From NCBI GenBank assembly GCA_016937995.1, contig JAFGVM010000057.1, forward strand, positions 1 to 64,000: a DNA stretch of 64,000 bases, in the 5' to 3' direction. This stretch comes from Candidatus Delongbacteria bacterium (GTDB taxonomy: Bacteria > UBA4055). The notes beneath the pieces are model-generated. The model searched no databases, was not told where the DNA came from, and saw nothing but the letters and a program-made list of their open reading frames with translations. The position numbers and the translations under genes are program-made. Shown here piece by piece: positions 48,536 to 51,979 of this stretch (positions are counted from its first letter, which is position 1; every line of letters begins with the position of its first letter).

Positions 48536-51500
48536 ATGAAAAGTTTAATATCAATAATACTGGTACTGTGTGTCTCTCTTTCTGCTGCTTTTGTAGATAA
48601 GGATAGAGCACAAAAAGTTGCAGTAAATTTCTATAAGAACCGCTGTCCTGAAGTGACTGCTAAATCAGGTGCAAATGTTGTGAAAGTCATTGAAAATGTG
48701 TATATGGGAGAAGTGACCAGATACACTGTTAAATTCGAACAAGGTTTTGTGATCATTACTTCAAATGATCAACTAAAACCTATTTTAGCATATTCAGACC
48801 ACGGAACTGTTCCAGACCCTGATAAATTGGGTGGTCAGAATTTTAAAGAATGGATCGAAAACTATGACAGACAGCTTTATTGTGGAAAATCCAGTAAATA
48901 TGTTGATGAAGCTGCCGTTCAACAGTGGATAGATATTGAGAACAATGTTTTTCCAAAGTCTTACAATATAGTTGTTGATAGACTCGTAGAGAGTAAGTGG
49001 GATCAAATATATCCCTGGAACGATCAATGTCCTGAAAAGGACAACACATGGACTTATGTTGGTTGCATAGCTACTACAATGGCACAAATGCTAAATTATC
49101 ATCAATGGCCTGTTACCGGAGAAGGAACAGTTTCATATGATTGGAATGGAACAACTTTATCTGCAGATTTTTCAACTTTAAATTTTGATTATTCAATGAT
49201 GAAAGATGAAATTGTGATCGAATGGGGATTATATCCTGAATATTGGGAATCCATGAATATGAACCAATCTGAATTGGATATGCTGGCAAGTCTTTCTTAT
49301 AATATGGGACTTTCGGTTGAAATGGATTATGGTACAACTGCCGATGGTGGTTCGGGACAAACCGCATTAGGTGTTGCAGATGCTTTCATGGATCATTGGA
49401 AAGCAGCTTCTTCTGTTTTTTATAGTTTAGGTACACCATTATTACCAGAAGAAGACGCTGCACTAATACGATCTGAACTTGACGCAAAAAGACCCTGGTT
49501 CTGGGCAGGTGGTCTTCATGCATTCTTACTCGACGGTTATACCAGTGATTACTGGTATCATTTTAACTTCGGCTGGGGTGGAGATTATGACGGTTGGTTC
49601 CAGAGAACTTTTATAATTCCAGGAGGAGTTGGTTCCTGTGATACTGGCGGGGGAGATTTCACTGCAAGTCAGATAGGTATAACATATGTGCCTTTGAACG
49701 ATCCTTTTACAGCATGGCCTGCACCGGAAAATTTTACGGGACAATTATTGAACGATTCAGATGTTCAGCTAACCTGGACAAAACCTTCTACAGGTAACCC
49801 ACTTAGTTACAATATTTATAGATCTGTGGATCACACTGAGCAAAAATTGATCAACAATACAATATCTCTATCCTACAGTGATCTAAATTTGTCAGCTGAA
49901 GACTATGCTTATTCTGTTAAGGCAGTTTATTCTGACGGAGAATCACATTTTACCGATACATACTATGTTCAGATTACCGAGCAAGAAGAATACCCAATAG
50001 CTGAAAATCTGTCTGCGACACCTGTCGGAAGGACCAGTATTGATATAGAATGGACAAAACCATATACCGGTATTATTTTCTTTGAAGAGGATTTTGAAAC
50101 CGGTATGACAGGATGGGTTCAAAAACAATCTGTAGCTGCCGGTGTTAAATCACCTTCTAGAGATTATTTCAAAGATAATATTGATGGCTGGATGTTAGTT
50201 GACTATAGCACATTCAACTCAGATGAATACATTCATAGTGGATATAACGCAACAGGACTTTCTTATTCTGCAGGTTCAAATGGGAATGGTCCATGGAGTT
50301 GGAACTTCACACCGGAATTTACTTTATCTTCCAACGGATTTATCAGTTTTTGGATATGGTATAAGAATAACGAAACAGAAGGATGGCTTACTAACATTAG
50401 AGGTTATTTGTATACGGGCGATTTTACTGAGGCAAACACAATTCAAGCTGAAGCTAATTTGACAAATATATTCTCTTGGGATGGTTCAGTTCTTGGCGAA
50501 GCTGGGAATAATCTCTATGATTCGGAAGTATTTTTCGATATTTCTGCTTACACAGGCACATATAGATTCGGTTGGGCTTATGAGTATACTAATGGTTATC
50601 AGTTAGCTATAGATGATGTCATTTGTGGAAGTAATCAGGGTGGAACTGATGAACCAACAGGATATGAAATTTACAGAAATAACACTTTGGAAGCTACAAT
50701 AAATGATCCAGAAGCAATTTTCTGGTCGGATACTAATTTTGCTGACGGAGATAATGAATATTTTATAAGAGTGCTTTATCCTACAGGACAATCGATCCCA
50801 TCAGACAGGGTAACAGCTTTTATCGACGCAAATCCCAAACCTGATTTTCTAACAGGTGTTTTTAATGATCTAAGCAATGATGTTGAATTGAACTGGTATA
50901 TGCCATACGGAACACCTCCTCACTGGTCAGCATATATTGCTCCAGAAAATTGTACTACGACAGTTGATTATTTAGATGATACTGATTGTGCAAGAAGAAG
51001 AGTTGAATTCAGAGCAGAGGAGTTAGGGCTCTATTATCCAGTTACAATTGATTCTTTAGCAGCGGGATTTTATGAATGGGAAGATGAACCGTGGAATGGT
51101 AATACCTTTGTTATCAGACTATGGGAAGGTCATCCTATTGATGGAGGTGTACTGCAATATGAATCCGGTACACTTACTGCAATTTCCGGAGAAATATACA
51201 AAATAGGTTTACCGATGCAGGTTGTGGTAAACGGGGAATGGAATGTTGAAGTAGAGGCATTGGACGTAACGACCGGTCACCCATCAACTCTTGCTGGTCC
51301 TTCGACTTCTGGAATAAACAGTTATTTTTACTATACTCAAGAGAGTTCGTACAATTATTATGTTTCATCCGGTGGAGAACCTTTGACATACTGTATGATA
51401 GCTCATGTTACAAGTGGAGACCCCGATCCAATTGTTAAATCTGGTTGGACAGCAGAAAAAGAACTCGTTGAAAAATTACCAATGATCGACAATAGGGTTA

Positions 51501-51979
51501 GAAAAATTGCAGACCTGAAAATTTCAGGAAAAGGATTGGACTATTATAAAATTTATAGAAATGATGTGATAATCGGTACTTCTACAACTACAAGCTATAC
51601 AGATAACTCTCTTGTATACGGAACTTATACATATTATGTAACAGCCTGCTATTTAAATCCGGTAGGTGAGTCAGATGGAAGTAATACTGTTGAAGTAATT
51701 GGTGGAATTGATCCTCCGGGACCTTTTCTTAATCCGGTTCCAAGTGTTTTAGGGAATACATTAACAATATCATGGGATCCCTTAGCCGAAGCAACAGGAT
51801 ATAATATCTATTCGTCAACAGATCCCTATGGAACATTCACTTTGGAAGATTCAGTAGTTGGTACGACATGGGAATCAACAATAATGCTGGATAAGAAATT
51901 CTTTTGCATAACAGCAACAAATGAAATGAAAGAACCTATGAAAGAAATTAGGGTGAAACAACCGGGTCTAGTTAAGTAA
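48536..51979 (+). CDS. C10 (streptopain-like) peptidase with FN3 and jelly-roll-like domains
   Basis: Signal peptide, I69-like propeptide, catalytic region VGCIATTMAQMLNYHQWP, GGLHAFLLDGYTSDYWYHFNFGWGGDYDGWF; multiple FN3 motifs. Confidence 0.9.
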   Translation: MKSLISIILVLCVSLSAAFVDKDRAQKVAVNFYKNRCPEVTAKSGANVVKVIENVYMGEVTRYTVKFEQGFVIITSNDQLKPILAYSDHGTVPDPDKLGGQNFKEWIENYDRQLYCGKSSKYVDEAAVQQWIDIENNVFPKSYNIVVDRLVESKWDQIYPWNDQCPEKDNTWTYVGCIATTMAQMLNYHQWPVTGEGTVSYDWNGTTLSADFSTLNFDYSMMKDEIVIEWGLYPEYWESMNMNQSELDMLASLSYNMGLSVEMDYGTTADGGSGQTALGVADAFMDHWKAASSVFYSLGTPLLPEEDAALIRSELDAKRPWFWAGGLHAFLLDGYTSDYWYHFNFGWGGDYDGWFQRTFIIPGGVGSCDTGGGDFTASQIGITYVPLNDPFTAWPAPENFTGQLLNDSDVQLTWTKPSTGNPLSYNIYRSVDHTEQKLINNTISLSYSDLNLSAEDYAYSVKAVYSDGESHFTDTYYVQITEQEEYPIAENLSATPVGRTSIDIEWTKPYTGIIFFEEDFETGMTGWVQKQSVAAGVKSPSRDYFKDNIDGWMLVDYSTFNSDEYIHSGYNATGLSYSAGSNGNGPWSWNFTPEFTLSSNGFISFWIWYKNNETEGWLTNIRGYLYTGDFTEANTIQAEANLTNIFSWDGSVLGEAGNNLYDSEVFFDISAYTGTYRFGWAYEYTNGYQLAIDDVICGSNQGGTDEPTGYEIYRNNTLEATINDPEAIFWSDTNFADGDNEYFIRVLYPTGQSIPSDRVTAFIDANPKPDFLTGVFNDLSNDVELNWYMPYGTPPHWSAYIAPENCTTTVDYLDDTDCARRRVEFRAEELGLYYPVTIDSLAAGFYEWEDEPWNGNTFVIRLWEGHPIDGGVLQYESGTLTAISGEIYKIGLPMQVVVNGEWNVEVEALDVTTGHPSTLAGPSTSGINSYFYYTQESSYNYYVSSGGEPLTYCMIAHVTSGDPDPIVKSGWTAEKELVEKLPMIDNRVRKIADLKISGKGLDYYKIYRNDVIIGTSTTTSYTDNSLVYGTYTYYVTACYLNPVGESDGSNTVEVIGGIDPPGPFLNPVPSVLGNTLTISWDPLAEATGYNIYSSTDPYGTFTLEDSVVGTTWESTIMLDKKFFCITATNEMKEPMKEIRVKQPGLVK

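Follow-up and report, generated by a model that had tools for sequence, protein, structure and literature searches.

Two consecutive FN3 domains split at the same loop by unrelated inserted domains in a C10 peptidase of Candidatus Delongbacteria

Proteins far more often join domains end to end than insert one domain into another. A C10 peptidase gene in a stretch of 64,000 nucleotides from Candidatus Delongbacteria (contig JAFGVM010000057.1, hereafter the window) raises the question of whether two neighbouring FN3 domains of one protein have each been opened by an inserted domain, and whether the same loop was used twice. A first-pass annotation had proposed this from the sequence. All the motifs it quoted are present in the 1147-aa ORF (Table 1), and the extent it gave to the split domains (49980-51710) agrees closely with the limits found here (49994-50824 for the first and 50825-51706 for the second). 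It had also named the protein a C10 peptidase, correctly so: PF01640 scored 145 bits against a cut-off of 26 over residues 155-355, which places the protein in that family. Besides Inhibitor_I69 and Peptidase C10, Pfam recognised a single clear fn3 in the protein, which is probably secreted. The catalytic domain and the I69 propeptide are shared with streptopain and interpain A; the solved C10 chains align to residues 57-382 or thereabouts only and have no counterpart of the tail with the split FN3 domains. Two tandem paralogues (G000:C14, 44805-52017) display the whole layout and the double-split tail, with 43-51% identity. Named relatives of the tail were mostly from Delongbacteria MAGs, plus one from Cloacimonadota.

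Table 1. Features of the C10 peptidase in the window
Feature	Residues	Position	Strand	Evidence or remark
Whole ORF	1-1147	48536..51979	+	1147 aa, probably secreted C10 peptidase
Propeptide Inhibitor_I69	17-113	48584..48874	+	Pfam E 4.7e-13
Peptidase C10 catalytic domain	155-355	48998..49600	+	Pfam E 3.2e-42; PDB interpain A / streptopain
FN3-1, intact	394-483	49715..49984	+	Pfam fn3 E 2.5e-6 (aa 396-475); pLDDT ~90
FN3-2 N-part, strands A-B, ending ...IDIEWTKPYT	487-511	49994..50068	+	AlphaFold, FN3-1 profile
Insert 1 in FN3-2, cleaved-adhesin-type jelly roll	512-705	50069..50650	+	Profile match to 3m1h, E 3.7e-6
FN3-2 C-part, strands C-C'-E-F-G	706-763	50651..50824	+	AlphaFold, FN3-1 profile
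FN3-3 N-part, strands A-B	764-791	50825..50908	+	Two AlphaFold models, FN3-1 profile
Insert 2 in FN3-3, mostly beta, low-confidence linker at end	792-999	50909..51532	+	hhalign to Cloacimonadota insert
FN3-3 C-part, strands C-C'-E-F-G	1000-1057	51533..51706	+	Two AlphaFold models; 8pn5 FN3 E 2.4e-5
C-terminal FN3-like domain	1058-1147	51707..51976	+	Common to ~30 proteins of the genome

With high confidence, the tail can be described as four FN3-type modules in a row, the second and third of which are split by inserts at the B-C loop, this loop acting as a recurrent acceptor. The halves were scored against a profile built from the intact FN3-1, 87 positions long, with shuffled copies of the halves as controls. 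The N-halves mapped to positions 2-25 and the C-halves to positions 30-87, so that both parts of each split copy matched complementary positions in the right order and the B-C loop alone was left over. C-halves reached a median of 32-33 bits (shuffled copies at most 10.9), while N-halves, weak when taken alone, reached medians of 3-9 bits (shuffled copies at most 5.8). The Pfam fn3 model missed the split copies, its best score being an E value of 0.15 for the N-part of FN3-2, as would be expected with an insert between the two parts. The split was kept in all 15 aligned family members, which come from several genera of a Delongbacteria family, and family-wide loss of either insert was not observed among these C10 homologues. 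The tryptophan of strand B was invariant in each split FN3 across the same alignment.

Predicted structures were in agreement with this mapping. Residues 384-1147 were modelled with AlphaFold (mean pLDDT 73.7, pTM 0.51, range of pTM across models 0.51-0.52; model numbering plus 383 gives protein numbering). In model numbering, FN3-2 consists of strands A (107-114) and B (118-124), then the insert, then C (326-331), C' (334-339), E (346-349), F (355-365) and G (376-380). FN3-3 shows the identical order, and a separate model of FN3-3 agrees, so that the seven-strand succession A-B-C-C'-E-F-G is predicted for both split copies. The FN3 parts mostly had pLDDT values above 75, while insert 2 was partly low and ended in a disordered-looking linker. 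In a Foldseek comparison, four consecutive FN3 domains of fibronectin (1fnf, 368 residues) aligned over 765 model columns; the approximately 400 gap columns equal the summed inserts (194 + 208), as is expected if the inserts are skipped. In the FN3 topology, strand E sits in the A-B-E sheet. The presence of a predicted strand E in the C-part therefore implies that strand B would pair with it across the insert. Separate complete domains, the outcome that the first-pass annotation had set against its own reading, were not seen in the models, as far as pairing can be read from strand order.

Homologues with and without an insert provided a further line of evidence. In another genus of the family, protein G003 C370 is 67% identical to G000 C11 (2699 aa, from the window genome) up to the motif LSWIPPV, in FN3 strand B, and 43% identical from ITGYEIYRN onward; between these flanks lie 203 aa in the former, which contain a cleaved adhesin domain, and 28 aa in the latter. 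For the other kind of insert, the third FN3 of the Cloacimonadota proteins L149 and L150 carries an insert-2-type domain, and that of L152, which is 60-63% identical to them overall, is uninterrupted and recognised by Pfam (fn3, E 7e-9). Pairs with and without thus exist for both kinds of insert and, as sequence comparisons, are direct evidence that the two flanks belong to a single domain. The direction of the change (gain versus loss) does not follow from them. The alternative that the tail consists of complete domains placed side by side, with edge strands or linkers that resemble FN3 halves, can draw on the single clear Pfam FN3 and on the short, weakly scoring N-parts, but this reading was rejected as extremely improbable on account of these homologues, where the same two parts make a continuous FN3, as well as of the complementary profile positions and the strand order in two models. 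Nesting of FN3 domains in the window protein is thus real and well supported, with a junction common to both, and the proposal that one and the same FN3 loop served twice as an insertion site is upheld by the profile mapping, the two models and the homologues lacking an insert at this place.

A comparable arrangement has been described in human PAPP-A (pappalysin-1) by cryo-EM. Its FN3-type domain M1 is discontinuous, with P672-F701 (30 aa) as one piece and L884-G943 (60 aa) as the other, and the beta-sandwich M2 (F702-P883, 182 aa) loops out of it (PMC9579167). Piece sizes in FN3-2 are alike (25 + 58 aa, with an insert of 194 aa), the topology is the same, and the FN3-3 model found its best Foldseek matches in PAPP-A chains (E 2.4e-5). 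The likeness is one of architecture, and no PAPP-A chain was reported among the PDB sequence matches of the window protein profiles. Furthermore, PAPP-A differs from the window protein in that M2 is F5/8C/C2-like and not a cleaved adhesin, in being a metalloprotease, and in having a single such split reported. The nested topology is therefore already known; the novelty lies in its repeated use in two bacterial phyla, where one loop takes up different inserts and natural pairs of proteins that have or lack them occur.

The two inserted domains belong to different families. The suggestion that insert 2 is a second copy of insert 1 was rejected (hhalign probability 0.3%), and the inserts are unrelated. 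Insert 1, previously called jelly-roll-like, does deserve this name given its relationship to gingipain adhesin domains: a profile of its 15 family members matched 3m1h (K3; Table 1) and 4itc (E 0.003), with the alignments confined to the insert, which supports homology with the solved gingipain K domains. Taken alone, the insert of the window protein matched no Pfam family, Cleaved_Adhesin included, and its nested relative in G003 matched the cleaved adhesin family at E 1.4e-32 and gingipain 4itc at E 6.8e-22. Insert-1-type domains were also found alone, outside any FN3 (L059, L069, L080), and are therefore autonomous. Insert 2 measures about 208 aa, the final 35-40 aa or so being a low-confidence linker in the AlphaFold model. 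It gave no match in a PDB sequence search, and Foldseek matches of its model were dominated by FN3 domains; it joins the family of the Cloacimonadota insert 'WITWCND...GTN' (hhalign 93%, E 3e-7). In three relatives, the gene that follows the C10 gene (L035 7152-11123, L036 8172-12113 and L038 7962-11624) encodes a product of 1221-1324 aa with an insert-2-like domain at its start, outside any FN3.

The resemblance of insert 1 to domains of gingipain and HagA of Porphyromonas gingivalis (K domains, PF07675) does not extend to the catalytic domain, which belongs to a different family. An FN3 N-part probably precedes the gingipain K domains. The PDB chain 9isp (PrtH) ends in an FN3 C-part like that of the window protein. 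Gingipain K domains have been described as modular haemagglutinin-adhesin domains, with no mention of fibronectin (PMC5266723). Our search, in which the subscription literature was incompletely covered, found no reports of split FN3 domains in Delongbacteria or Cloacimonadota, nor of an FN3 insertion in gingipains. Concerning function, the inserts might act as spacers or stabilisers of a stalk with no binding role, and the strong divergence of insert 1 among family members (mean column identity 33%) would fit such a role; this is unlikely in view of the adhesin relatives of insert 1, characterised as haemagglutinin-adhesins in the report cited above.

Occurrences of the split FN3 are not peculiar to the window protein, since the B-C loop is occupied in many proteins secreted by Delongbacteria and Cloacimonadota. 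The nested FN3-2 profile matched in 56 of 60 Cloacimonadota genomes, many of the matches covering the C-part alone. A survey of loci from both phyla, with a few from others (L051-L053), yielded 131 distinct FN3 domains with both parts. Their B-C spacing was 14 aa or less in 39 cases, 15-60 aa in 14 and 151-300 aa in 78, with none between; the domain-bearing fraction is inflated, as these loci were mostly collected with a nested query. The common junction and the size gap are not products of this bias. Among the 78 domain-bearing copies, 41 held a type 1 insert, 34 a type 2 insert and three another. None of the loci that were read showed a split at another loop within the C-part. Beyond the three C10 proteins of the window genome, the other FN3 domains read there were intact or held a linker only. 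A charged, low-complexity linker of 20-36 aa, with no domain, occupies the B-C loop in L071 (G000 C11), L050, L052, L062, L131, L140 and L148.

Large secreted Cloacimonadota proteins with a Por_Secre_tail (L149, L150 and L154) have the same order as the window protein, an FN3 with a cleaved adhesin followed by an FN3 with an insert-2-type domain. Proteins of this group differ in other respects: those scanned (L149, L152 and L157) have no C10 domain and carry a T9SS tail in place of the FN3-like C-terminus, though L156 does have a C10 domain. Other combinations were also encountered, with two consecutive type 1 nested FN3 domains in L048/L161 and, in L157 (G038), an insert-2-type domain in each of two consecutive FN3 domains. 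In L155 (G032), compared with L150 and L149, FN3-2 and FN3-3 are seemingly fused into one FN3 without the material between them, an outcome that recombination between FN3 shells could produce.

How the present distribution came about can be read in more than one way. A single split FN3 may have arisen once, been duplicated and had its insert replaced, in which case there was a single opening of the B-C loop. The C-parts of FN3-2 and FN3-3 are 40% identical to each other against 32-37% to FN3-1, and the order of the two inserts recurs in Cloacimonadota, both of which are consistent with this scenario, but alignment scores put the C-parts of FN3-1 and FN3-3 closest, the inserts are unrelated, and empty and linker-only versions exist in close proteins, so that loops would have been gained or emptied repeatedly. 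A single opening thus appears possible but somewhat improbable. Alternatively, split FN3 domains may be ancestral, some lineages having deleted the insert and left a charged linker behind. Several FN3 domains do have a charged linker of 15-60 aa at the B-C loop that resembles the linker following the inserts, both inserts are retained throughout the aligned C10 family, and L155 has the appearance of two FN3 domains joined into one after the intervening material was lost. The short loop of L152, on the other hand, has no remnant. Ancestral splitting followed by losses is a serious possibility, to which we would give slightly less than even weight.

The C-terminal FN3-like domain deserves separate consideration. 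It occurs in about 30 ORFs of the genome, usually 0-40 aa from the stop, with the motif YxVYSSxDPYGxF ... KxFYYIxA, the copy in the window lying at 51719-51976 (aa 1062-1147). No Pfam match to Por_Secre_tail (PF18962) was found in the window protein, which is thus not identified as T9SS cargo by this domain; the genome encodes SprA_N and 55 copies of Por_Secre_tail above the cut-off. The FN3-like domain could be a sorting or anchoring domain beside the T9SS Por_Secre_tail.

Based on the profile mapping and the models, we propose that FN3-2 and FN3-3 would each build strands A-B, leave through the B-C loop into a complete inserted domain, and then return to the FN3 to build strands C-C'-E-F-G. 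The B-C loop would be a recurrent acceptor site that can be empty, filled by a short charged linker or filled by a whole domain. In the most likely functional reading, which is about as probable as not, the FN3 domains may form a stalk with the inserts attached to its side at both of their ends, where they would serve as binding domains bringing the protease to its protein substrate or to a surface. Adhesion is favoured here because insert 1 is related to gingipain adhesin domains. More tentatively, and with some reservation, the B-C loop may be a cassette site in Delongbacteria and Cloacimonadota, and perhaps in gingipains, where unrelated binding domains are gained, lost and exchanged while the FN3 shell is kept.

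The split also explains why annotation misses these FN3 domains, as Pfam sees neither half clearly, and invites a fresh look at the adhesin region of gingipains, which may consist of nested FN3 domains. Natural pairs in which one site either holds or lacks an insert are of value for studying domain insertion. A single loop of a very common module has been reused again and again, by at least two unrelated insert families with pairs for both, and the B-C loop appears as an acceptor that tolerates whole domains. If the cassette site is true, the surfaces of these proteins would diversify by swapping loop-held domains.
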